A stretch of DNA of 64,000 nucleotides from Paraburkholderia aromaticivorans (GTDB lineage: Bacteria; Pseudomonadota; Gammaproteobacteria; Burkholderiales; Burkholderiaceae): contig NZ_CP051517.1 of the NCBI RefSeq assembly GCF_012689525.1, positions 78,976 through 142,975 of the forward strand, written 5' to 3'. Below the pieces are notes generated by a model, which saw only the letters and a program-made list of their open reading frames with translations, was not told the origin of the DNA and ran no database searches. The position numbers and the translations under genes were made by a program. Position 1 is the stretch's first letter. Every line of letters begins with the position of its first letter. Shown here one piece after another: positions 49,721 to 64,000 of this stretch.

Positions 49721-51058
49721 TCAATGAAGCGGCTCGGCCGCAATCGCATGCTTGCGCATCTTCTCCCACAGGCTCTTCCTCGAAATACCGAGGGCTTGGG
49801 CGGTCTCTGAGATGTGGCCCTGGTGCTGCAGCAGCGCGGCGCGAATGAACGCGTTTTCGCATGCAGCCATGTAGCCTTCGAGCGGAGTGTCCATGTCCAG
49901 CGCTGCTGCAGCCTGGGACCCATCCTCCTCGAAGATGTCGGACGAAAAAAGCATGTTGCGGGAACACACGATGCATGCGCGCTCAAGACGGTTTTGCAAC
50001 TCCCGCACGTTGCCGGGCCACCCATATGTCGCCAGTCGCGCTTCGGCCGAGGGATGAAACAGTTTCGTTGGTTCACCAAGCCGGCCCGCAATGTCGCGTA
50101 CGAAACGATGGGCAAGCCATAGGACATCGTCGGGCCTGTCGCGAAGTGCCGGGACGCGTAGCTGCAGGATGTTGATGCGATAGAAGAGGTCCTCCCGAAA
50201 TTTTCCGACCCGGACCAGTTCCGCGAGGTCCCGATTCGTTGCGCAGACCAGCCAGAAGGTGGTCTCGAATCCTCTCTCACCACCGACTCTCGTGACGTGT
50301 CGCTCCTGCAGCGCACGCAGCAACTTCACTTGCATCGACAGAGGCAAGTCGCCTATCTCATCGAGAAAGAGCGTGCCACCCTCAGCCTGTTCGAAGTACC
50401 CCTTCTTCTGCCGCTCCGCGCCGGTGAAGGCTCCTTTCTCGTGGCCAAAAAATTCGGATTCGAGAAGCGTCTCCGGAACGGCACCACAGTTGACTGCGAC
50501 AAACGGAAATGCGTCGCCAGGCGCATGGCGATGAATGAACCGCGCGAGCACTTCCTTGCCGACACCCGATTCGCCGGTAATCAGAATCGATTTGGCTCGA
50601 CCTGCGACTCTCGGCACGAGTTCGGCGAGGCGCCGCATCGCTTCGGACACACCCAGCTCGCTCTGCGCGGGCATGGCGCGGTCGGGTATGCCCGTCCCTG
50701 TGAGAAGTCTGACCTTGTCGACCAGCGCGCCTATGTCGAACGGCTTCGTGATGTAGTCTGCTGCGCCGTTTTTAAGGAGAGCAACTGCCGTATCGACTGA
50801 CGCGTAAGCCGTGATGAAAACAAATGGCGGCACGGACCCGTGCGCGGCCACCGAACGCGAAAACAGGTCCTCGCCAGAAATGTCGGGCAGCCGGATATCG
50901 CTGATGACGGCCTGATAAGGGCGATTCTGCATAGCGCCGAACGCCGATTCACCGTCGGTATGCCAGTCCACATCGAACCCTTCCAGACGGAAGCGGTCAG
51001 CCAAAGACTCGCCCATGATGGGGTCGTCTTCGACAACGCAGATAAGCGTGGTCGACAT
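49721..51058 (-). CDS. aioR: AioR-like sigma-54 response regulator
   Basis: This 445-residue NtrC-type protein has a receiver with acceptor Asp in AVISDIRLPD. Its AAA+ domain carries GESGVGKEV and the sigma-54 loop GAFTGA. A Fis-type HTH closes it (ISETAQALGISRKSLWEKMRKH). Next to a kinase and a PhnD-like protein, and divergent from aioBA, it corresponds to AioR. A consensus -24/-12 promoter precedes aioB. Confidence 0.92.
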   Translation of the reverse strand: MSTTLICVVEDDPIMGESLADRFRLEGFDVDWHTDGESAFGAMQNRPYQAVISDIRLPDISGEDLFSRSVAAHGSVPPFVFITAYASVDTAVALLKNGAADYITKPFDIGALVDKVRLLTGTGIPDRAMPAQSELGVSEAMRRLAELVPRVAGRAKSILITGESGVGKEVLARFIHRHAPGDAFPFVAVNCGAVPETLLESEFFGHEKGAFTGAERQKKGYFEQAEGGTLFLDEIGDLPLSMQVKLLRALQERHVTRVGGERGFETTFWLVCATNRDLAELVRVGKFREDLFYRINILQLRVPALRDRPDDVLWLAHRFVRDIAGRLGEPTKLFHPSAEARLATYGWPGNVRELQNRLERACIVCSRNMLFSSDIFEEDGSQAAAALDMDTPLEGYMAACENAFIRAALLQHQGHISETAQALGISRKSLWEKMRKHAIAAEPLH

Positions 51059-51072
51059 GATGCTCTCCTGTT

Positions 51073-52530
51073 TCACGGAGAAGTAACCGGCAACAGCACG
51101 GCAAAGTACGTCCGTCCCGGTGCACTGTCCACTGAAATTGTGCCACCGAGCTGCGTGACGATTTGATAGCTCACCCACAATCCGAGGCTGTACGACCGCC
51201 GCCCCTCGGCCTTGGAAACCGACCCGAATGGTTCGAACAGGTGCTCCATCGCAACGCCCGATATGTGCTGACCGGTGTTCGATACTGTTATTTGCAGCCC
51301 AAATCCGTTGACTGCAACCAGACAGTCAACGCGCCCGCCAACTTCCACTGCCTTCACAGCGTTCAGCAGCAGGTTGAGAACGAGCTGGCGTACCAGGTGT
51401 GCGGGTAGTGCTATCGCCTCGTCCAGCTCGATGTCCCAATGAAACGCTGCCTGCTTAGCCTGTATTTGCGGCGCTATCAACAGCTTCAAATCCTGCCAGT
51501 CCGACAGACTCATCGCTGGTGAGTCCAGCCGCGCCTCAAACAGCAACGCGCCGACAGTCGCGCGGATTTGGCCAAGACCGCGTTCGAGCAGCCCCAGTGT
51601 CTTCTTTGTTTGAGCGTCGGGCTCACCGTGAGTGTTGAGCGTATCGATAGCGTTCAGCATGCCGCCGAGCGGATTGTTGATTTCGTGTGCGATGCCGGCT
51701 GCGACCTGGCCTACGGCAGCAAGTCTCTCGGAGACGACCACTTCGCGTTCCAGGTCCTGTTTTTGCGCCAGTTCTGCGAGCATGGTCCGAAACTGCTGTT
51801 CCAGTTGACCTATTTCGTCGTTACTTTGCGCGGTGATGCCCGCTCCCACTTTTTCCGGATGCTCCTTTCCAACGCGAGCCATGGCCGCTGCGAGGCGCAG
51901 GAGCGGCTTCGCCATCCGGTCGCCCCACACCCAGCCCAACGGTATCAGTAGCAACAAAGCTGGCACCGTGGCTACGGCGAGCTTGAGCAGCGTCGAGCGC
52001 ACGCGGCCGTAGAAGGTATTGGCGTCATAGACCAGCACCACATAGCCGAGGCGGCTCCCGTCGTCGGAATTCACTGGCATGCCGGCGGTGACATCACGGC
52101 TCGCGAACAATCCAGGGAAGTCGAAGAAGAACGGGTCACCGGAGCCTCCAAGATGAGAGATGACCGTACCGAACTGGGCGGGAAGATGGGCGACCGGCCG
52201 CTGGACAGGTTCCTCCCGGGGAGAGGTTGACGCGTACACCCGCGCCCTGGCATCGAACAGAACGATTTCCTTCAGCGGATTCGAGGGCTCCCTGACCGCC
52301 ACCGGTGTTCGAATCGCTTCGAATGCACGCCACAGGTCGTCCTTGACCATAGGGTCTCGAACCGACAGCGTGAGAACGCGGCACAGATTCTGGGCGCTAC
52401 TTTCGAGGTCATTTCTGGCATCGGATACCGCAACGCTTACGAGCGCGACGGTCACGAGTATTTCCGTCAGCAGGATGACTGCGCTCAGGGCGAGCGGAAT
52501 CTTGTAGCGGTAGCTGAGATGGGACAGCAT
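51073..52530 (-). CDS. aioS: AioS-like sensor histidine kinase
   Basis: This 485-residue kinase has two membrane spans (about 12-34 and 178-200), a periplasmic sensor domain, a HAMP-like linker and an H-box GIAHEINNPLGG, followed by an ATPase domain. It senses arsenite with AioX and phosphorylates AioR. It is encoded between aioX (10 bp) and aioR (14 bp). Confidence 0.9.
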   Translation of the reverse strand: MLSHLSYRYKIPLALSAVILLTEILVTVALVSVAVSDARNDLESSAQNLCRVLTLSVRDPMVKDDLWRAFEAIRTPVAVREPSNPLKEIVLFDARARVYASTSPREEPVQRPVAHLPAQFGTVISHLGGSGDPFFFDFPGLFASRDVTAGMPVNSDDGSRLGYVVLVYDANTFYGRVRSTLLKLAVATVPALLLLIPLGWVWGDRMAKPLLRLAAAMARVGKEHPEKVGAGITAQSNDEIGQLEQQFRTMLAELAQKQDLEREVVVSERLAAVGQVAAGIAHEINNPLGGMLNAIDTLNTHGEPDAQTKKTLGLLERGLGQIRATVGALLFEARLDSPAMSLSDWQDLKLLIAPQIQAKQAAFHWDIELDEAIALPAHLVRQLVLNLLLNAVKAVEVGGRVDCLVAVNGFGLQITVSNTGQHISGVAMEHLFEPFGSVSKAEGRRSYSLGLWVSYQIVTQLGGTISVDSAPGRTYFAVLLPVTSP

Positions 52531-52540
52531 CTGCGTGACC

Positions 52541-53419
52541 CTACACCGGCCCGGAGTTCAGAATCGCAACCAGGCTGCGGATACCGTCGAACACCTTGTC
52601 GTCGTTCGGCACGAAACCGTCAAGGTTCAATCGCTGCAACACATCCCGACCTTCAGGACGGTCTTTCATCCCGAGCAGCGCACTCTGGATACGAAGAAAC
52701 GATTCGTCGTCGAGCGAGTGACGCGCCACAATCGGCGGAAAACCATACTGCGGGGAGCGCCACGCAACGCGTACGTCGCGGGTGCGTTCCGGGTACTGCT
52801 TCTCGATGGTGTCATAGACATAGCCATCAATCTCACCCGCGTCCGCGAGACCAGTCGTCACGGCATCAACAACTTTCCTGTGCGCATACGTGAAGAATGA
52901 CTTCCTGAAAAAGCGGGTCGGCCGGATACCCGCACGTATCAGTTCGGTAGTCGGGACCAGAAAACCGGAATTTGATTGCGGGTCGCTGTATGCGAACACC
53001 CGGTTCCGAAGCTGCGAGATGTGGGTCGTCTGCGTGTCGCTTCTGGGAACAATCAGGTACGAACGATAGAGCGGCTGCCCCTGATAGTCCGGTATCGCCA
53101 TCAACCGCATCGTCAGTGGGTTCGTGACGTACGGAAACCCACAGACCCACGCTACATCCAGCCTGTTCTCGGCCAGCAGGTCGTCAATCTCGCGATAGCT
53201 ATTGCGCTGCACAAACTTCACGTCTGCACTGCATACCGCACCAAGCTCGCGGCTCCACCGGTCCAGCAGGTTGATCTCGTTGTCGAGGAATACAGCGGTC
53301 GTACCGAACGCAACCGCCGGGCCTTCGCTGGCAAATGGAACTTTGAAGGACGAGAGGAGTGGAACGCCTAACGCGAAGCGCAGAACCCGCCGCCGCCCGA
53401 TGTTACGAATTGGTGACAT
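52541..53419 (-). CDS. aioX: AioX-like periplasmic arsenite-binding protein
   Basis: This 292-residue PhnD-family binding protein has a Tat-like or Sec leader (RRRVLRFALGVPLLSS). Visible features are DVAWVCGFPYVTNPL and YAHRKVVDAVTTGLADAGEIDGYVYD. In arsenite oxidisers AioX binds As(III) and triggers AioS. A single Cys in WVCGFPY and one in GAVCSADV are candidate ligands. Confidence 0.88.
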   Translation of the reverse strand: MSPIRNIGRRRVLRFALGVPLLSSFKVPFASEGPAVAFGTTAVFLDNEINLLDRWSRELGAVCSADVKFVQRNSYREIDDLLAENRLDVAWVCGFPYVTNPLTMRLMAIPDYQGQPLYRSYLIVPRSDTQTTHISQLRNRVFAYSDPQSNSGFLVPTTELIRAGIRPTRFFRKSFFTYAHRKVVDAVTTGLADAGEIDGYVYDTIEKQYPERTRDVRVAWRSPQYGFPPIVARHSLDDESFLRIQSALLGMKDRPEGRDVLQRLNLDGFVPNDDKVFDGIRSLVAILNSGPV

Positions 53420-53445
53420 AACGGCTCTCCCCCAATCACGAACCG

Positions 53446-53459
53446 TTACCGGACGGTAA
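53446..53459. repeat. Palindrome between aioX and aioB
   Basis: Arms TTACCG and CGGTAA with a 2-bp centre. It lies 69 bp upstream of the sigma-54 promoter, a suitable distance for an AioR enhancer site. It is also close to the aioX start. Either use is inference. Confidence 0.5.
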
Positions 53460-53527
53460 TGGCGTCCATCAGGTCTGCTGAATTACTACCCGCAGTGCGC
53501 AAGGCTCTCGGCGGACGTTTGACTGCA

Positions 53528-53542
53528 TGGCATACGTCTTGC
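53528..53542 (+). promoter_or_regulatory. Sigma-54 promoter of aioBA
   Basis: TGGCAT-N5-TTGC places GG and GC exactly 10 bp apart, the -24/-12 pattern. Transcription would start near 53554, 42 bp before aioB. The regulator encoded divergently is a sigma-54 activator. Confidence 0.85.
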
Positions 53543-53595
53543 CATTAAGTCGATGCTAACGACTACCCGAGCAAGATTCAAGCGAGGAGGAGACC

Positions 53596-54120
53596 ATGTC
53601 AGACTTAAAAGTCGCACGCCGTACATTTCTAAAAATCAGTGGCGGCTCGATTGCGGCTACTGCCGCGTCAGCGCTTGCTCCGAACGTGGCTTCTGCCGCG
53701 AACACAACGGATACGAGCAGGACGAAACTTCCGTATCCGAGAAAACCCGTAGCCCATGTCGGCGGCATGGCGCTCAACGCGCCAGTCTCGTTTGCCTACC
53801 CCGATGCCGCGTCGCCCTGCACAGCGCTCAAGCTAGGCAGCCGGGTACCGGGTGGCGTTGGACCGGATGGCGATATCGTCGCCTACAGCGCCATGTGCAC
53901 CCACATGGGCTGTCCTGTCATATACGAGCCCACGACGAAGGTTTTCAAGTGTCCCTGCCACTTCAGCATGTTCGATGCGGAGAAAGCCGGACAGATGATT
54001 GCCGGGCAGGCCACCGAAAATCTGCCGCGCGTGCGACTTCACTATGACGAGAAGACAGGCACCGTGTCGGCAGTCGGCGTGGAAGGGTTGATATACGGCC
54101 GCCAGGCCAACGTACTTTGA
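53596..54120 (+). CDS. aioB: Arsenite oxidase Rieske subunit AioB
   Basis: This 174-residue protein has a Tat signal ([11 protein letters not shown]) and a Rieske [2Fe-2S] site: Cys101-x-His103 and Cys119-x2-His122. Cys106 and Cys121 are placed to form the disulfide that some AioB proteins lack. It passes electrons from AioA to the respiratory chain in the periplasm and carries the complex across by Tat. A GGAGGAG ribosome site precedes the start. Confidence 0.96.
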
Positions 54121-54136
54121 GTTCGAGGAGCTGAAA

Positions 54137-56614
54137 ATGCCTACCGATAAGGACCGCATTGCGCTACCGCCGGTCACGGCCCAGCGAACCAATATGACCT
54201 GCCATTTCTGCATCGTCGGATGCGGATACCACGTGTACAAGTGGCCGGAAGACCAGGAAGGTGGTCGCGCACCCAACCAGAATGCGCTTGGCGTTGATTT
54301 CCGCAAGCAGCTGCCACCGCTCTCGCTCATCATGACGCCTGCGATGGAAAACGTGGTCACCGACCGCGACGGCTCTCGCCACACCATCATGATTGTTCCG
54401 GACAAGAGCTGCGTCGTGAACAGCGGCTTGAGTTCGACGCGCGGCGGCAAGATGGCGATGTACATGTACGCGGCTGACGGGATCACCCAGGAGCGTCTGA
54501 GACAACCACGCATCTACCTGAGCGACCAGTGGGTCGATACGACCTGGGACCAGGCTTTGGCGCTCTACGCCGGCCTGATGAAGAAGGTGCTCGACAAGGA
54601 TGGCCCGAGCGGTATTGTCTTTTCTGCCTTCGACCATGGTGGTGCGGGAGGCGGATTCGAGAACACGTGGGGTTCCGGCAAGTTGATGTTTACCGCGCTG
54701 CAGACACCGATGGTCCGCATTCACAACCGTCCCGCGTACAACTCGGAGTGCCACGCTACCCGTGAGATGGGTGTTGGGGAACTGAACAACTCGTACGAGG
54801 ATGCTGAGCTAGCCGATGTCATCTGGTCTATCGGCGCGAATTCGTACGAAACGCAGACGAACTACTTCCTGAATCACTGGGTGCCGAACCTGCAGGGCGG
54901 GACGCTCGACAAGAAAAAACAACGCTTCCCAGGCGAGGCACTCCCGAAAACAAAAGTCGTATTCGTGGACCCGCGACGCACGCCAACTGTTGCCATTGCC
55001 GAGCAGGTAGCCGGAAAGGACAACGTGCTACATCTGGATATCCAGCCGGGCACTGACATTGCATTATTCAACGGGATTTTTACCTACGTGGTCCAGCAGG
55101 GATGGATTGACAAAGACTTCATTGCTGCGCATACGAATGGATTTGACGCGGCTGTCCAGGCCAACAAGCTGTCACTCGACGATTGCAGCAAAATCACGGG
55201 TGTACCGGTTGAAAAAATCAAGACCGCAGCGGAGTGGTCATATAAGCCGAAGGGGCCGGGCCAGTTTCCGAGAACGATGCATACCTACGAAAAGGGCATC
55301 ATCTGGGGCAACGACAATTATCTGATTCAGTCGTCGCTGCTGGACGTTGCGCTGGCCACTCACAATGTCGGACGGAGAGGCACGGGCTGCGTGCGCATGG
55401 GCGGACATCAGGAGGGATACACGAGGCCGCCATATCCCGGCAATACAAAGATATACATCGACCAGGAGCTCATCCACGGCAAGGGACGGATGATGACGTG
55501 GTGGGCGTGCAATAACTTCCAGACGAGCAACAATGCGCAGGGTCTGCGCGAGGTGGTCTTGCGTCGCTCGCAAATCGTGAAAGACGCGATGCTGGGTGCA
55601 CGTGGTGCGAGCACGGAGCAACTGGTCGATGTGATTTACGACGCGACCAGCAAAGGCGGTCTGTTCGTGACGAGCATCAACATCTATCCGACGAAGCTCC
55701 AGGAGGCCGCGCACCTCATGCTGCCCGCAACGCACCCGGGTGAGATGAATCTGACGTCGATGAACGGTGAGCGCCGCATGCGCCTGTCCGAGCGGTTCAT
55801 GGACCCGCCCGGAAGCGCGATGCCAGACTGCCTTATCGCCGCGCGCGTTGCCAACACGCTGCGCGCCATGTATCAGAAAGATGGCAACACGAAGATGGTC
55901 GCTCGATTTGAGGGTTTCGACTGGAAGACCGAAGAGGACGCGTTCAACGATGGATTCCGTCGCGCCGGGCAACCGGGCGTGGAAAAGATAGACAGCCAGG
56001 GCGGCAATACCGGTAACCTGGTCACTTACGAACGGCTACGCGTCATGGCCAACAACGGGGTGCAGTTGCCAGCGAAGGCGTGGGAAGGTGGGAAGCTCGT
56101 CGGCACCGAAATGATGTACATGGACGGCAAATTCGATACGCCAGACGGCAAGGCGCAGTTCAAGCCGTCTCCCTGGCCAGGGTTGCCAAAGCTGGTTGCA
56201 GACCAGAAAGGGAAATACCGCTTCTGGATTAACAACGGTCGTACGAACGAAGTGTGGCAAACGGTTTATCACGACCAGTACAACGAATTCGTTCGTGACC
56301 GGGACCCGATGGCCTATATCGAAATCAACCCGGACGATGCACAGGGGCTCGGAATTGGCGCGGGCGATATCGTCGAAGTCTTCAACGACTTTGGGTCCAC
56401 GTACGCAATGGCCTATCCGGCTGCCGAACTGAAGCATGACCAGACCTTCATGGTGTTTGGCCACATCAACGGCATCCAGGACAACCTCACGACCACATGG
56501 ACGGACCGCAACATCATTCCGTACTACAAGGGCACGTGGGCGAATATCCGTCGGGTCGGGTCGATGGAGGATTACAAGCAAAAGGTCAGCTTCAAGAGTC
56601 GCCGTTATACATAG
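54137..56614 (+). CDS. aioA: Arsenite oxidase molybdopterin subunit AioA
   Basis: This 825-residue DMSO-reductase-family protein has the [3Fe-4S] motif Cys22-x2-Cys25-x3-Cys29 with Ser in LSSTRGG near residue 99. It has no signal of its own and is co-exported with AioB. The C-terminal domain ([23 protein letters not shown]) binds the bis-MGD cofactor. It oxidises arsenite to arsenate. Length and motifs are those of full-length AioA. Confidence 0.97.
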
Positions 56615-56620
56615 GTGACG

Positions 56621-56655
56621 ACGGCCGGCGCATTGTCGGCCGTATTCTCTTTTTT
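56621..56655 (+). terminator. Terminator after aioA
   Basis: Arms ACGGCCG and CGGCCGT with a 9-base loop are followed by ATTCTCTTTTTT, a good intrinsic terminator between aioA and moaA. moaA would then depend on read-through or its own promoter. Confidence 0.75.
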
Positions 56656-56692
56656 GAGCCGGCGGCTATCCGCACGTGGGAGTGGAGCTGCG

Positions 56693-57820
56693 ATGAAGGC
56701 ATTTACTCTGGGGCGGGTCATTCCGCTTGTCGAAGTCGGCGCCGCTGACTCGACGGAACGTGGTTTCCGTGCACAAGACATAACGGCAGCAGAGCTACCG
56801 CTTCTGGACACGCGCCATCGCCCGTTGCGAGACTTGCGCATTTCGGTTACGGACCGCTGCAACTTCCGTTGCGTCTACTGCATGCCGAAGGAGGTGTTCG
56901 GCAAGGACTACGCATTCCTGCCCCGACGGGAATTGCTCAGCTTCGAAGAAATCGAGCGCGTTGCACGTGTGTTTGTTGATCTCGGTGTTGAAAAAATTCG
57001 ACTCACGGGTGGAGAGCCACTGCTTAGAAAGAACCTTGAATATCTTGTCGAGCGGCTGGCTCGACTGCGAACGCCTTCGGGCGCAGATGTCGACCTAACG
57101 CTGACGACAAACGGCTCGCTGCTCAGTCGCAAGGCACAGTCGCTGTGGGACGCGGGAATGAAGCGCATCACCGTCAGCCTCGACTCAATAGACGAGACCG
57201 TATTTCAGCGAATGAATGGCGTTGGTTATCCCGCCGCGCTCGTGCTCGAAGGAATCGACGCGGCGCTACGAGTCGGTTTCGCTCCGGTTAAGGTCAACAT
57301 GGTGGTCAAGCGTGGAGTGAACGACGCCCAGATTCCACCCATGGCCCGATACTTCCGGGGAACAGGCGTGGAAGTCCGTTTTATCGAGTTCATGGACGTC
57401 GGCACGAGCAACGGCTGGAATATGGGATCGGTGGTGCCTTCGTCCGAGGTTCTACGGATTATTGACGCCGCTTTCCCGCTGGTACCGGCAAGCCGCACCA
57501 AACCTTCGGATACGTCGGTTCGATTCCACTATGCCGATGCTCAGGGAGTAATCGGTGTCATCTCGAGCGTCACACAGCCTTTCTGCGGAGGCTGCACGCG
57601 GTTGCGGTTGTCTGCAGACGGCCAGCTCTTCACCTGTCTGTTCGCCTCACGCGGCCTGGACCTACGAACGCCACTGCGAAACGGACGCACTGATAGTCCG
57701 TTGCGCCAACTGGTTGCGGACTTGTGGAGGCGAAGGGCCGACAGATATTCAGAGCAACGTGGCGAAAGCGGCGCCGCCCACGGTCGCTCCAAGGTTGAAA
57801 TGTCGTTCATCGGCGGTTGA
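56693..57820 (+). CDS. moaA: MoaA GTP 3',8-cyclase
   Basis: This 375-residue radical SAM enzyme has the N-terminal cluster CNFRCVYC, the GGEP motif in [10 protein letters not shown], the C-terminal cluster [12 protein letters not shown]...FTC, and the essential terminal GG. It starts molybdopterin synthesis, the cofactor of AioA. The ATG follows GGAGTGGAG. A plasmid copy beside aioBA likely boosts cofactor supply. Confidence 0.94.
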
Positions 57821-57898
57821 TGCCGCGCCTATGGCCGCTTCACCATCCATCACGGAAGAGGACATTCCAGAGTCTTCCGCTCACAGCGATGGATTTCC

Positions 57899-58321
57899 CT
57901 ACTTCGCGCGACGCCCGTGTTCATCGACAACAATTTCTCCGTCCTCTTTCGTGAACGGCACATTCTGTGCCTCCGGCAGGATGTCCAGAACAACCTCGGA
58001 CGGCCGGCACAACCGAACGCCATGCGGAGTCTCCACGAAAGGACGATTGATGAGTATTGGGTGTTCTAACATTGAATCCAGAAGCTTGTCGTCGCCAAGC
58101 AAGGGGTCATCCAAACCAAGTTCCGCGTAAGGCGTACCTTTCTGCCGCAATGTTTCACGCACGCTAAGGCCGGACCGGCCGATAAGCTCCACCAGCCGTT
58201 CACGGGTCGGTGGTGTCTTCAGGTATTCAATGATGGTCGGTTCGATGCCGGCATTGCGAATCATGGCCAGCGTGTTCCGCGAGGTGCCGCATTCCGGGTT
58301 GTGGTAAATCGTGACGCTCAT
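57899..58321 (-). CDS. arsC: Arsenate reductase, glutaredoxin type
   Basis: This 140-residue protein has the Grx-dependent ArsC signature [12 protein letters not shown] with catalytic Cys11, and Arg residues at LLINRPFV-like ILINRPFV and HGVRLCRP. It differs in fold from the first arsC, so the island carries both classes of arsenate reductase. It overlaps arsO by four bases upstream. Confidence 0.93.
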
Positions 58322-59950: not shown

Positions 59951-60003
59951 GTCCCCTTCACCCCGGGGCTGGTTCCGCATCGTCCTTCAAGCTGCCCGAC
60001 GCG

Positions 60004-60297
60004 CTATTTCCTCAGGTCGAAGTCATCGACGGTCAGCACGATACGCTCGCCTGGCCGGGCACGGGCCTTACGTTCCGCCAAAGCCACGATGCGCCTGCGC
60101 CCTTCGGAAAAGGCATTGAGGACGCGCGCATCAGGTGCTCCAGGTTGCACCCAGAAATGCTGCTCGAGTGTCTCGCGCGTGACGACGCACGCGATGTCGC
60201 GGCCGCACAGTGACAGCGCAAAAACGACACCGTCCTTTGAAACGCTGGGTTCAAGTTCAAGGGCTTCCACGATAGGCGCTCGATTGATTGTTTCCAC
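60004..60297 (-). CDS. DUF1488-like protein
   Basis: This 97-residue protein (EPSVSKDGVVFALSLCGRDIACVVTRETLEQHF, then VLNAFSEGRRRIVALAERKA) resembles the small DUF1488 family in its strand pattern followed by an AF-x3-R-x-x-I helix. Function unknown. It is a single gene on the minus strand. Confidence 0.6.
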   Translation of the reverse strand: METINRAPIVEALELEPSVSKDGVVFALSLCGRDIACVVTRETLEQHFWVQPGAPDARVLNAFSEGRRRIVALAERKARARPGERIVLTVDDFDLRK

Positions 60298-60650
60298 GTA
60301 CTGTACTTATCGTACGGGCGAGACGCCGGAAATTTCAACAAAACCTGAACGACGCTCGTCGCTTTTGCCCAACATCGAGCGTCGGGGAGCGGAAGCGAGA
60401 TGCCGAAATCGCGCTTCCGGAAGAGACAAGCCGGCAAGTCGAGAACGGAGAAATCGGCTGACAACGCGCGGTCCGCTGCGGGGCGCCAGCCTAAACCGTC
60501 GGGCGACCAAGGGCGGAACATTCCGCTTTCTGGTTTTCTCGCTCAAAATAACTATTTGGGCCAGTCATGCGCCGCGGACGCTGAGCGGAACTGCCGTTTG
60601 AATGGCCATCCAAGCGTGAAGATGAAACGTTGCCGATGACCGCACCGAGA
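60298..60650. other. Unassigned stretch with a hairpin
   Basis: I see no convincing gene. A palindrome at 60390-60419 has arms CGGAAGCG and CGCTTCCG with a 14-base loop. It could be a protein-binding site. No transfer-origin nick motif is recognised. Confidence 0.4.
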
Positions 60651-60968
60651 TCATTCATCATCGGATGCTGATTCAGCCATGCCACTCAATCCCAATTCGA
60701 GTGTTTTGCCACGCCAGATCGTGCCCAAGCCCGCCATATCGCAGAGAATTGCCCACGCTATATAGGGGACGGGCGTTTCTCCGCTTATCCAGCGCCTGAC
60801 CTGGCGGCCGCCATGCTCACTCAGCCCGAGCACCCTGGCGAGAGCCCGACCCGACAGGCCGATGCGTCGCACCACCTCCTGAACTTCAGCGCCCCGAGGC
60901 CGCTCCCATCCCTCATCCGCCGGGAGCAAACACTCGGCCCGAATGGGTGTATGAATATCAACTGTCAT
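60651..60968 (-). CDS. HTH-domain protein
   Basis: This is a 105-residue protein. Residues about 28-85 form an XRE-like helix-turn-helix (EVVRRIGLSGRALARVLGLSEHGGRQVRRWISGETPVPYIAW). It is probably a DNA-binding regulator of the accessory region. It follows the 179-residue unknown gene by 19 bp in the same direction. Confidence 0.65.
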   Translation of the reverse strand: MTVDIHTPIRAECLLPADEGWERPRGAEVQEVVRRIGLSGRALARVLGLSEHGGRQVRRWISGETPVPYIAWAILCDMAGLGTIWRGKTLELGLSGMAESASDDE

Positions 60969-60987
60969 TTTTCTATCGCCTTTTCTC

Positions 60988-61527
60988 TTAGTCGTACTTC
61001 CTGGATCGGACGGATCTTCGCGCCCGGTCGATCACGTCCGCCGCGACCTTTTCTTCCAGCCGTAATCGATGCGCGCGGAACTCATGTTCCGGCCACCGCG
61101 CTTCGCACTCCTCGAGCGCCTTGACTGCCTGATCGCGAGTCATCGGGTGCGTATATCCCGGCCGTGGTTCGTACACGTCACCACCAGCACTCACCGCCCG
61201 TATACGCACGGCACGCTGGATGATCCAGTCGTCCGTCCAGATTTCGGGCGCCGCCGAAGCTTCACTGGCATCTGCGCCAACCTCCGGCAGGTTGCGCTCA
61301 TCAAAGTGTCGCTCCCCGGTCGACATGTCGAACAGTGTAACGATCACGTCGTCGAATCGTTCCTGCAGGTCAGCCGCATCTCGCCATGCCTCCCCTGGAT
61401 CGTCGTATTCCGCCGGCGTATCGCCAGGCTGCGCGTGTCTGAATCCGACCGCCCCCCACTGGTCAAAACTGAGCACCACATCGAAATAGCGGTTCGCTTC
61501 GTCATCCCAGACCTGCACTCGAAACAT
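60988..61527 (-). CDS. Plasmid hypothetical protein
   Basis: This 179-residue acidic protein (MFRVQVWDDEANRYFDVVLSF; DEAWRDAADLQERFDDVIVTLFD-like segment) has no signal or membrane span. Two parts are visible: an N-terminal beta-rich module and a C-terminal helical one (TRDQAVKALEECEARWPEHEFR). No family recognised. Confidence 0.6.
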   Translation of the reverse strand: MFRVQVWDDEANRYFDVVLSFDQWGAVGFRHAQPGDTPAEYDDPGEAWRDAADLQERFDDVIVTLFDMSTGERHFDERNLPEVGADASEASAAPEIWTDDWIIQRAVRIRAVSAGGDVYEPRPGYTHPMTRDQAVKALEECEARWPEHEFRAHRLRLEEKVAADVIDRARRSVRSRKYD

Positions 61528-61873
61528 GGTGCCCTCCTGATCCTGAACGATTCATTGGTGCCTCTGTCCTCGATCCAGCCCCCACGGCTTTGCCGCGGTG
61601 GAAACACGCAGCCTGCGGCTGCTTGACGACCCCCACCGCAGTTGCACGGTGCCTCACCGGATCGTCCCTCCGCTGCCGCTGCGGGTCGGCGCTCTCCCCA
61701 CGCCTCCCGGCGCGGGTCCCCGTGCGCCTCGATCCGGGCGCGCAGGCGCGCGCGATAGGCTCCCAGTCAATACGAGTCCTGGTTTAGCAGGAAGGGGGCT
61801 GCCCGGCACCCGCGTCTGCGATCGGACAGGCGTGCCGGTGCCTGTCAGCCTCGGACACAGCCACACCTGCCCG
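61528..61873. other. GC-rich intergenic stretch with short hairpins
   Basis: No gene is supported. A hairpin at 61608-61622 (GCAGCC/GGCTGC) lies among several C/G-rich inverted repeats. It may hold terminators of the upstream leftward genes. Confidence 0.4.
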
Positions 61874-62284
61874 TTACCAACCAACGTAGTTCAGCAAAAG
61901 CTCCGCGATCAGCTTGCGGCGAACAAGGTCCAGCCCTGACAGGTCGGCAAAGCCCCTGATGCCTGCTTTCTCCCACAGAAGAACGCTATCGTGCGAGTTG
62001 TAGAACGAATACAGCGCGGCAAGGAAGGTCCGCTCGCCGCTGCTGAGAACACCGAAGGCATCGAGAATGACCGCGCCATTGGGCGCGAGCGCCCATTTGT
62101 CTTTCGCCGTCTCAACGGCCTCGCTGGTGCCATCGCCGAAATACACCGGACCGGCCAGCATCACAGCCTGTTTCCATGCCTCAAAAAACCGCGCAGGCGC
62201 GGCAGTAAAGTGGGCGTCGCTTTCCTCCTGCTCGCGGCGAAACTGTTCGAGCACTTCGGGGGGGAACTTCGATTCGTCGGTCAT
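61874..62284 (-). CDS. Hypothetical plasmid protein
   Basis: This 136-residue protein from ATG (MTDESKFPPEVLEQFRREQEESD) has a helical N-terminus and a mixed alpha/beta centre (FLAALYSFYNSHDSVLLWEKAGIRGFADLSGLD). Its start overlaps the upstream DUF3717 stop (ATGA). No family recognised. Confidence 0.65.
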   Translation of the reverse strand: MTDESKFPPEVLEQFRREQEESDAHFTAAPARFFEAWKQAVMLAGPVYFGDGTSEAVETAKDKWALAPNGAVILDAFGVLSSGERTFLAALYSFYNSHDSVLLWEKAGIRGFADLSGLDLVRRKLIAELLLNYVGW

Positions 62285-62505
62285 AGCGGCAATTCCTGTT
62301 GATAAAGGGCAGTCGTCACGGCTTCCACCTGCTCGGCAGACAGCGAAGACACGTCGATGGCCGTTGCGTGTGTGTAGATCATCTCGCCATAGATATCGGC
62401 AAGGTGACGCGCTTTCGGGCACAGCGCCGCGTCTTCTCCAGACGCCTGGCGGTTTCGCCACACGTTGATCGCCCGTTCAATCTCGGCAATTGTAAAGGTT
62501 GGCAT
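62281..62505 (-). CDS. DUF3717 protein
   Basis: This 74-residue protein has the family pattern FTIAEIERAINVWRNRQAS, then LCPKARHLADIYGEMI. DUF3717 proteins are found in Burkholderiaceae; function is unknown. It is coupled to the next gene by a four-base overlap. Confidence 0.75.
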   Translation of the reverse strand: MPTFTIAEIERAINVWRNRQASGEDAALCPKARHLADIYGEMIYTHATAIDVSSLSAEQVEAVTTALYQQELPL

Positions 62506-62560
62506 GTCAGGCTCCGAAGCCCGCGCGCAAATGTGTCCATACGCACGCGGGCGGTTCAGG

Positions 62561-62755
62561 TTATTGGGCGAACAACACTTCGTAGAGTCCGCCCCGGTCG
62601 ATCGACATTTCGGCATCCGGCAACTTCGCCACGCCGCAGATGAAGTCGAACGGGCCGCGGTACGGCAGCATTTCAAGAATCGTCTGATTGCCGAACCATG
62701 TGCACAGCACGTCGCCGCGCTTCAGTTCGCAACCCCGTTTCAGTTCTGTCGTCAT
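62561..62755 (-). CDS. Small hypothetical protein
   Basis: This 64-residue beta-rich protein (LKRGDVLCTWFGNQTILEML; GGLYEVLFAQ) overlaps the upstream gene's stop by four bases. No family recognised. Confidence 0.6.
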   Translation of the reverse strand: MTTELKRGCELKRGDVLCTWFGNQTILEMLPYRGPFDFICGVAKLPDAEMSIDRGGLYEVLFAQ

Positions 62756-63066
62756 GCGGCACGCCCGCGAGTGTGGCGCACCGCATCGTGAACTGCTACC
62801 AGAGGCGCGCGGGGTGGTACGCGGTCGAACTCCGAAAGCGCGGCACGCGCGATCGCGCGAAGCTCGTCGCGGTGCATGTCGATCGCATGACCGTCCCGGT
62901 CGAGCATGTTGGCGATGCGGTGCAGCGCGTCGGCGGTCTTCGCCGCAGCATCCGCCGACAGCGCCATGCGGAACAGTTCAGCACGCACGATTTCACGGTC
63001 CCCGTACTGGTAGACGGCCAGCAAAGGCAGAAGTGCGGTCAGCCAGGTTGGGCGAATTTGCGTCAT
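62752..63066 (-). CDS. Hypothetical helical protein
   Basis: This 104-residue protein begins MTQIRPTWLTALLPLLAV and is helical throughout (AKTADALHRIANMLDRDGH). An ATG two codons upstream is possible. Downstream it overlaps the 64-residue gene (ATGA). Family unknown. Confidence 0.6.
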   Translation of the reverse strand: MTQIRPTWLTALLPLLAVYQYGDREIVRAELFRMALSADAAAKTADALHRIANMLDRDGHAIDMHRDELRAIARAALSEFDRVPPRAPLVAVHDAVRHTRGRAA

Positions 63067-63134
63067 GTCCATTTCTTCCTCACTGATTTTCAGATAGGGC
63101 GAAAGACCCCAGCCCGCAGGCCGGGGCTAGTTGA

Positions 63135-63548
63135 TTAGTCGATAGCGCGGAGAATGTTCGCGGCCTCTACGTGCTGCGTCGCGTAGGCGCGCAGTTCGTG
63201 GTAGTGCTCGATAATGCTGTCATCGCCGCACTTTTCCGCCAGATGGCACAGGGCAAACAGCGTGACGACGATTCCGAAGGCGTCCGCGCCCATCATGTCG
63301 CTGTAGCCGTTCATATGCCACCGCACATGCACCCGTCCGCAGTTCGAAGGGGCCATATAGAAGCCGCCGTTCGACAACTGGAAGAAGTCCCACGAACCGC
63401 CGTTGTAGGCACTCGAAAGGCGCGCGGCCCAGTCGTACACCAACGCTTCGCCCTGGAGGTATTGCGCGCCCAGGTAGTGAGGAAGGAAATTCAGGCGTAA
63501 CTCATCAACAACAACGTTTGACGAGATTCTGGTTTCATTAGCAATCAC
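63135..63548 (-). CDS. klcA: ArdB/KlcA-family antirestriction protein
   Basis: This 137-residue protein matches ArdB/KlcA: LRLNFLPHYLGAQYLQGEALVYDW, GGSWDFFQLSNGGFYMAP and SDMMGADAFGIVVTLFALCHLAEK. These proteins shield incoming plasmid DNA from type I restriction. The start is a GTG. Its 5' leader is identical to that of the divergent ParB-like gene. Confidence 0.9.
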   Translation of the reverse strand: MIANETRISSNVVVDELRLNFLPHYLGAQYLQGEALVYDWAARLSSAYNGGSWDFFQLSNGGFYMAPSNCGRVHVRWHMNGYSDMMGADAFGIVVTLFALCHLAEKCGDDSIIEHYHELRAYATQHVEAANILRAID

Positions 63549-63593
63549 GGTTATCTCCGGTTATGGCCATCGCACCACGCGAGGCACAACTTA

Positions 63594-63613
63594 ATTGTAG
63601 TGACATTTTGTCC
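63594..63613 (-). promoter_or_regulatory. Promoter of the antirestriction operon with operator-like motif
   Basis: On the minus strand the -10 is TACAAT (63599-63594). The -35 is weak (ATTATT at about 63621-63616). The motif CATTTTGTCC (plus strand, 63604-63613) lies in the spacer and is repeated in the divergent promoter. Confidence 0.55.
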
Positions 63614-63696
63614 TAAATAATTAGTATTTTGATTTTCATTTTAAATCAATCCTGAAGTCCAATTAATAATTCCAAACGACACCTGTTGATATATTC

Positions 63697-63724
63697 TTTA
63701 CTTAGGTCATTTTGTCCGTATAAT
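63697..63724 (+). promoter_or_regulatory. Promoter of the ParB-like gene with the same motif
   Basis: TTTACT (63697-63702) and TATAAT (63719-63724) are 16 bp apart. CATTTTGTCC recurs at 63708-63717 in the spacer. Repression of both promoters by one regulator is likely. Confidence 0.7.
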
Positions 63725-63769
63725 GGTTATGTGCCTCGCGTGGTGCGATGGCCATAACCGGAGATAACC

Positions 63770-64000
63770 GTGGATCACATTGTTGAAAGCCGTGCAACTG
63801 AAACCGTTCCAGAAACCAGCTTCGTCAACGACACGCCGATCGAGTACGTGCCGCTCGGTCTGCTATGCAAGTCGCCGCACAACGTGCGCCGCAAAGCGCC
63901 TACCGGCATCGAGGCGCTGGCCGGGAACATCGCCGCAGCGGGCGTCATGCAAAACCTCGTCACCCATGAAATGAAATCGCGTGGCAAGCAGCGCAAGCTG
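63770..64000 (+). CDS. ParB/KorB-like DNA-binding protein (partial)
   Basis: Seventy-seven codons from a GTG are inside the window. The sequence IEYVPLGLLCKSPHNVRRKAPTGIEALAGNIAAAGVMQNLVTHEM is the start of a ParB/Sulfiredoxin domain (CKSPHNVRR, then the helix IEALAGNI, then GVMQNLV). It is distinct from the parB at 11996-12970. Plasmids often carry such a second ParB-like protein as a global regulator (KorB type). Confidence 0.82.
   Translation, partial: MDHIVESRATETVPETSFVNDTPIEYVPLGLLCKSPHNVRRKAPTGIEALAGNIAAAGVMQNLVTHEMKSRGKQRKL

Follow-up and report, generated by a model that had tools for sequence, protein, structure and literature searches.

Identical leaders of klcA and a divergent ParB-like gene as copies of a putative structured 5'-UTR element of plasmid operons

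RESULTS

klcA and a ParB-like gene diverge at a contig end. The stretch analyzed, here called the window, comprises 64,000 nucleotides of a Paraburkholderia aromaticivorans plasmid (contig NZ_CP051517.1, positions 78,976 to 142,975), and the features of interest lie near its right end (Table 1). Two small open reading frames (ORFs) follow klcA, likely in the same operon, and TraD- and TraA-type genes and a relaxase gene lie near the pair on the same plasmid. The end of the window is also the end of the contig (C4, 142,975 b), and the ParB-like gene resumes at contig base 1. Between position 64000 and base 1 its reading frame slips by one nucleotide, from either a faulty assembly join or a genuine frameshift. 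Full-length relatives of the protein gave matches to ParB families, all below the family cut-offs, and the match of the full-length L004 relative, which is to ParB_N, is likewise below cut-off. Elsewhere in the window (49721-58321), ORFs recognized by eye from the ORF list only resemble an arsenite-oxidation cluster, with a response regulator, a histidine kinase, a periplasmic binding protein, MoaA-like and ArsC-like proteins, a Rieske subunit (53596-54120), and a large molybdopterin subunit (54137-56614).

Table 1. Features at the klcA/ParB-like locus, in window coordinates
Feature	Position	Strand	Basis
korC homolog downstream of klcA, 105 aa	60651..60968	-	56% identity over 78 aa to pHH128 (IncP-1) KorC
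Two small ORFs downstream of klcA, likely same operon	62752-63072, 62561-62755	-	ORF list; same order annotated in L003/L004
klcA, ArdB/KlcA antirestriction protein, 137 aa	63135..63548	-	PF03230, E=3.3e-37
klcA leader copy, predicted +1 to GTG	63546..63588	-	Exact match to other arm; R1 63553-63590 (-), 43.8 bits
Possible RBS mini-hairpin II, klcA; Shine-Dalgarno GGAG 63558-63555	63548..63559	-	Comparative pairing count, fold
Bulged stem-loop I, klcA leader	63566..63585	-	RNA fold, covariation across relatives
Predicted -10 TACAAT, klcA	63594..63599	-	Read from sequence
KorC-like operator TAGGACAAAATGTCACT, klcA-side promoter, more degenerate	63599..63615	-	3 of 12 fixed positions differ
KorC-like operator TAGGTCATTTTGTCCGT, ParB-side promoter	63703..63719	+	2 of 12 fixed positions differ
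Predicted -10 TATAAT, ParB-like gene	63719..63724	+	Read from sequence
ParB-like gene leader copy, predicted +1 to GTG	63730..63772	+	Exact match to other arm; R1 63728-63765 (+), 43.3 bits
Bulged stem-loop I, ParB side: GCC TCGC / loop GTGGT / GCGA, bulged T 63749, GGC	63733..63752	+	RNA fold, covariation
Possible RBS mini-hairpin II, ParB side: CGG 63759-63761 with CCG 63768-63770, last G of CCG being first base of GTG; Shine-Dalgarno GGAG 63760-63763	63759..63770	+	Comparative pairing count
ParB-like gene, first 77 codons, rest from contig base 1	63770..64000	+	87% identity over 77 aa to L004 ParB-like protein

The two leaders are inverted copies, identical at 43 of 43 nucleotides. A sequence-only reading of the window had reported two such arms, each running from the predicted +1 to the GTG codon; the match is exact and the gene starts agree. 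No match of such length arose in 100 dinucleotide shuffles, and when mismatches are allowed the inverted repeat grows to 82 nt at 80% identity. That reading had proposed searching the replicon for more copies of the leader, and a third copy proved absent from the genome: a 23-nt core with up to three mismatches, run across the 10.84-Mb genome, and a covariance model, run genome-wide at E<=0.01, each returned only the two arms. A whole-plasmid model search adds one weak match (L018 19702-19739, minus strand, 16.5 bits, E 0.13). We also rejected the idea that the plasmid encodes an antisense RNA or a further copy, as the longest exact words, 11 nt in the same sense and 10 nt complementary, are at background.

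Both promoters contain a KorC-like site. The promoters between the arms had been said to differ, which is half right: both hold a similar operator-like palindrome between -35 and -10 (63703-63719 and 63615-63599). KorC sites were recognized by the RK2 operator consensus, which was then compared with IncP-1 promoters. The plasmid carries 23 such sites with three or fewer mismatches, three of them with two mismatches, including the one at 63703; because other plasmid sites score equally, the window operators are not singled out by sequence alone. Relatives have TAGGGCA..TGCCCTA at the place of the ParB-side operator, as do the IncP-1 klcA and kleA promoters, and in L011 and L045 the palindromes at that place are perfect. 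Thus, the window operators are backed by their position and by the relatives rather than by sequence alone. A korC homolog is encoded downstream of klcA, and KorC may bind and repress both window promoters.

The leaders share a structure. Judged by comparison across plasmids, the conserved unit is an approximately 8-bp stem, in most cases with a single bulged base on its 3' side and a loop of 5 to 6 nt, and then a short hairpin around the Shine-Dalgarno sequence. In most leaders the order is outer pairs, a single-base bulge on the 3' side, inner pairs, and loop; type C leaders are mostly without the bulge, the L041 klcA leader departs from the structure and is missed by the model, and L047 and L049 reach only 11 to 15 bits. 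Two alignments carry the structural evidence. In A2 (25 leaders, aligned with MAFFT), 93.5% of cells are paired and covariation is 0.421 versus 0.173 when shuffled (0 of 500 shuffles), and in A4 (104 model matches, 82 distinct rows), 92.5% are paired and covariation is 0.355 versus 0.146 (0 of 500), with slid controls at 0.089 or less. A4 was fitted to the model and thus leans toward structure, while A2 was not fitted. The 25 rows of A2 were drawn from the 35 of A1 by leaving out those that were misaligned, unbulged, or near-duplicate (L034p, L055k, L057k, L031p, L061p, L060k, L047, L049, L011p, and L011k). Two of the five covariation measures did not exceed shuffles in A2 (double-change pairs, 206/500; pair types, 136/500), nor did one of the five in A4 (double-change pair count, 234/500), where 24 of 82 distinct rows leave the outermost pair open and 21 leave another pair open. 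Cells with G-U far outnumber those with A-C, at 48 versus 1 of 638 in A4 and 15 versus 0 of 200 in A2, and therefore folding can be assigned to the sense strand. Finally, of 48 distinct segments, 34 allow the ribosome-binding-site (RBS) pairing CGGA/UCYG just before AUG at the exact offset and 5 at +1, an arrangement also seen in the window, whose CCG runs into the GTG codon; five other offsets gave 0 or 1.

Two approaches were set aside. Folding energy of single sequences was uninformative, with the window pair no better than shuffles (z 0.44 and -0.17) and, of six leaders folded singly, only that of L097 low (z -2.91). A search by core pattern with a free loop and three mismatches was too loose, returning 1310 and 1302 matches versus 760 and 773 when reversed.

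The leader precedes genes in sense orientation. The 104 model matches represent 99 distinct places (fetched twice were L063 with L098 and L062 with L100), and 100 of them (95 of the distinct places) lie within 18 nt before a same-sense ORF, versus 1 of 104 in the opposite-sense control. The four exceptions are the ParB sides of L030, L037, L012, and L055, and the ParB-like gene is decayed in the last two. Covariation, the G-U excess, and sense placement on both DNA strands together point to an element that acts as RNA. A KorC-like site lies upstream of 89 of the 99 distinct places, versus 119 of 1980 shuffles; six of the remaining ten are classed as an ACAAG..CTTGT palindrome and four as neither type. 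By the same scan, the eight upstream sites of L097 and L098 comprise six ACAAG..CTTGT sites, one KorC-like site, and one of neither type. In these two loci, the ACAAG..CTTGT operator precedes leaders of the same structure, so the leader occurs with two different upstream operators and is not tied to one repressor. L097 and L098 also share, by eye, ORFs of 70 aa and about 275 aa, which have no Pfam match.

These results bear on whether the leader is instead a downstream operator in double-stranded DNA, bound by a dimeric repressor. Repressors are common in such plasmids and the inverted repeat is close to +1, but the one-base bulge and the G-U cells break dyad symmetry, and the element occurs with the two upstream operators just described. 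We consider a DNA operator very improbable.

Several operons of one plasmid can carry the leader. In pHH128, an IncP-1 plasmid, klcA and kleA are both preceded by it, in nearly the same sequence (44.1 bits, the pHH128 and window leaders being in the training set). Three operons carry it in L140 (pYKBL037) and three in L146 (pLR-27_2, Escherichia coli, IncP-typed), where all three copies have the same compensated double change in the loop-closing pair. The KPC plasmids L137 and L141, typed IncU, have it before klcA and another ORF, and L097, L098, and L099, from genomes of the same genus, have it before four operons each. In L099 (2966-5430), the four operons have nearly identical KorC-type leaders, and three begin with small proteins.

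The leader is neither a general feature of klcA nor dependent on it. At the klcA genes of the IncL/M plasmid L144, of L145, and of the IncF plasmid L148, the leader was not found (nothing above 10.1 bits), which rules out the motif as a general klcA/ardB feature. KlcA as an obligatory partner was also rejected, since L142 (Serratia) has two motif copies and no klcA at tblastn E<=1. The annotation of L142 (NZ_MT039214.1, 14731-37912) repeats a large block that includes the korC operon, with the L139 leader motif twice inside; L138 was viewed over 5 kb. BLAST with one IncP-1 klcA promoter-leader stretch matched 1102 plasmid records, 616 of them from Klebsiella, and klcA itself was matched in 50 of 144 same-genus genomes. 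The model matched in 10 of 369 class genomes and 21 of 299 family genomes, weak matches included. Eight weak matches (25 to 31 bits) were inspected, with class loci L105 to L111 left out, and three (L101, L123, and L127) but not the other five have an ORF start within 18 nt.

At several operons of a single contig the leader sits immediately downstream of the predicted start, which might suggest a nascent-RNA element that drives RNA polymerase through terminators in early operons. The put and nut sites are read-through elements of a comparable kind. In the available portion of a report on RA3, orf02p transcripts may cross a module with an efficient terminator (PMC7414963), but such crossing can be ordinary leakage, and read-through leaves the RBS hairpin unexplained. 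We regard this explanation as improbable.

Structure rather than strict identity is maintained. Leaders vary strongly between plasmids (TGTGCCTCGC..GCGATGGCC, GTGGCCCGGC..GCTGCGGCC, GAGGCCGAA..TTCGGTC, and TTGTCCAGG..CCGGGACA are the types found) and usually match within one plasmid. Types coexist in P. fungorum OTU2SAUBB1, where L004 and L005 are type A and L007 is type B. For 29 distinct pairs drawn from 32 klcA/ParB-like loci listed by hand, identity over the 38-nt leader averages 0.88 within plasmids and 0.70 between them (0/2000 permutations), compared with 0.66 and 0.64 for the 60 nt upstream of the leaders (2/2000) and 0.59 and 0.59 for 60 nt of coding sequence (1420/2000). The pairs exclude decayed ParB-like loci, the repeats L023, L025, L026, L038, and L059, and also L041, whose differing leaders would have reduced the average, and L047 and L049, whose arms are nearly identical at 11 to 15 bits. 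The copies thus evolve in concert. The proposal that selection or conversion keeps the leaders identical holds for their likeness within plasmids and fails for strict identity: in the type C loci (L011, L031, L032, and L045) and in L120, L097, and L098, the two leaders are 0.57 to 0.82 identical and both are able to form the stem-loop. Free divergence of the arms in relatives, named beforehand as evidence against the proposal, is therefore found in sequence in these seven loci and not in structure. We conclude from these comparisons that structure, not strict sequence identity, is the conserved property.

The leader is also the unit that is kept. In L137 and in all but one of the six pairs of L099, leaders are 0.93 to 0.97 alike although the 60 nt upstream are only 0.62 to 0.70 alike. 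In L021, the klcA-side spacer from -10 to the leader is identical to that of the ParB side, a trace of gene conversion, whereas in the window, L003, L004, and L005 the two sides are unlike at this place. The two copies have different loops in L009, L010, L030, L033, and L037, which disfavors strict sequence recognition. Where the ParB-like gene is a remnant, its leader can be lost and the klcA leader retained (L013, L048, L014, L015, and L044), and in L039 the ParB-side leader is nearly lost (12.6 bits); yet in L005, L012, L028, L054, L055, and L057 the gene is broken and the leader still found. Among 13 PLSDB loci compared, seven (L004 and L006 to L011) show the divergent arrangement with the ParB-like gene at full length; this gene is interrupted in L003, cut off in L005, and fragmentary in L012 to L015. 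On the P. fungorum plasmid of L003 (12671-18369), three tyrosine recombinase genes split the ParB-like gene, and on that of L005 (4449-6491), it gives way after its first codons to genes for an integrase and a Tn3-type transposase. Both plasmids nevertheless retain identical 43-nt leaders.

The inverted arrangement does not account for the likeness of the copies. Copies in direct orientation (IncP-1 klcA/kleA, L099, and L137) are equally alike, and therefore arm-to-arm pairing is not what keeps copies alike. A cruciform or the edge of an inverted duplication, which had been offered as alternatives, is not needed. An Frpo/ssi-type promoter, in which the arms pair in the transferred strand and rebuild a double-stranded promoter, was the explanation we first favored, given the 82-nt arms and the relaxase gene nearby. 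Arms and promoter region can indeed pair in the window, whose strand folds at -67.6 kcal/mol (z -13.5), and such promoters occur in leading regions according to the consulted parts of two papers (PMC11541004, PMC9849209). We dropped it, however, as the direct copies cannot pair in this way, the two window genes are encoded on opposite strands, arms match poorly in several relatives that keep both local hairpins, and the G-U pairs favor the sense strand of the gene. Moreover, matches follow gene sense, also at the divergent klcA/ParB-like pair, rather than a transferred strand, and a search of the plasmid for nic-like motifs, as a guide to transfer direction, gave no clear site. A single-stranded promoter thus seems most unlikely.

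DISCUSSION

We favor the reading that both arms represent one new, conserved and structured 5'-UTR element that belongs to a plasmid-establishment regulon, acting on the mRNA and homogenized between copies, and we put its probability at roughly 0.55. Each leader would follow a promoter with a KorC-type operator. Stem-loop I, directly after the predicted start, may be a recognition or 5'-stabilizing element, and hairpin II, which would hold the Shine-Dalgarno sequence before the start codon, may set the rate of translation initiation. The element would be common to genes whose expression likely surges on plasmid entry into a cell still free of KorC, namely klcA and the ParB-like gene here and kleA and others in other plasmids, and would match the output of these operons after derepression. 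Near-identity within a plasmid would arise by duplication and gene conversion under selection for structure, and the head-to-head arrangement would be incidental. Post-transcriptional control through a shared leader, as first proposed from the window, is largely supported, the kept unit being a sense-strand structure between the predicted start and the start codon; the start sites are predicted, and KorC binding, zygotic timing in the window plasmid, and an effect on translation or decay are inferred parts of the proposal.

The burst is suggested by analogy to RP4. In the consulted part of a study of RP4 transconjugants, klcA rose 224- and 121-fold in two matings, kleC 51- and 28-fold, and kleA 38- and 22-fold; the authors attributed the rise to derepression, and single-stranded promoters were not found for these genes (PMC7314908). 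If the window pair behaves likewise, its expression should also surge as the plasmid enters a cell.

Perhaps the hairpin is passive. It could be a cis-acting stabilizer of the mRNA 5' end without a dedicated partner, and the identity of copies could reflect only recent duplication and gene conversion. The conversion trace in L021 and the drift of loops between copies would fit, and in the accessible text on p576, short inverted repeats in the leader of an establishment gene are thought to lengthen RNA half-life (PMC8708921). A stabilizer, however, does not require the conserved 3' bulge, the loop size, or the RBS hairpin, nor does it explain leaders that stay 0.93 to 0.97 alike beside upstream sequences that are 0.62 to 0.70 alike in L137 and five of six L099 pairs. 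We think a passive stabilizer possible but doubtful. More tentatively, we speculate that the leaders belong to a new class of cis-regulatory RNA that marks entry operons of KorC-type and related conjugative plasmids and is read by a co-evolving, plasmid-specific partner, giving each plasmid a private post-transcriptional regulon.

klcA, kleA, and their KorC promoters belong to well-studied broad-host-range plasmids. If their operons share a structured leader, the repressor control to which the consulted papers ascribe the entry burst would be joined by a further layer at the RNA level. The leader would also serve as a sequence marker for further establishment genes, as here for ORFs without a Pfam match.

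The leader hairpin itself appears to be new as a 5'-UTR element, within the open-licence PMC literature and the stretches scanned with Rfam 15. No Rfam 15 family matched over the leaders in window positions 60000-64000 and L066 4400-6700 at E up to 5, or over those in L097, L098, L099, and L140 at E up to 1. A description of the hairpin was not found in the portions consulted of open-licence PMC papers, a scope that older IncP-1 papers fall outside. As far as the consulted text goes, what is already in print is KorC control of klcA, kleA, and kleC (PMC12365149) and the duplication of klcAp and orf02p in RA3.

Other establishment regulons are comparable. Delver and Belogurov (1997) is among the references cited in this context. 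As described in the parts consulted, the CUP (IncN pKM101) and ArdK (R388) regulons, compared here by description, resemble the present case in that leading-region or establishment operons have conserved upstream sequences under one repressor, but ArdK belongs to the KorA family and acts at direct-repeat operators, unlike the KorC type here (PMC6289460, PMC9723621, PMC3937220). In the accessible account of the Bacillus plasmids p576 and pLS20, related upstream regions likewise precede several establishment operons (the EGeRS regulons), and the region upstream of p576 ardC has short inverted repeats; these plasmids differ in being Gram-positive, in their repressor, and in their much longer EGeRS1 regions (PMC8708921). 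The STAXI motif, in the part of its description available, is likewise a nucleic-acid structure found close to genes for antirestriction and ssb, but consists of tandem pseudoknots (PMC2864571).

The closest systems are KorC controlled. RA3 (IncU/IncP-6) has the KorC-controlled pair orf02p and klcAp, said in the consulted part of the report to stem from duplication (PMC7414963). In L137, an IncU-typed relative, the leaders before klcA and the upstream ORF are 0.97 alike and the 60 nt upstream only 0.62, so that, with RA3 itself compared by description, only the leader has been kept. The IncP-1 plasmids RK2 and RP4 share with the window a KorC homolog and klcA, and have a palindromic operator between -35 and -10 where the window has its putative KorC sites, and the leader hairpin itself is not described in the portions of their literature consulted. 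As in the window, several IncP-1 operons have near-identical leaders, and in pHH128 the hairpin recurs at both klcA and kleA. Unlike in IncP-1, the second gene of the window is ParB-like and divergent, which turns the two leaders into an inverted repeat.
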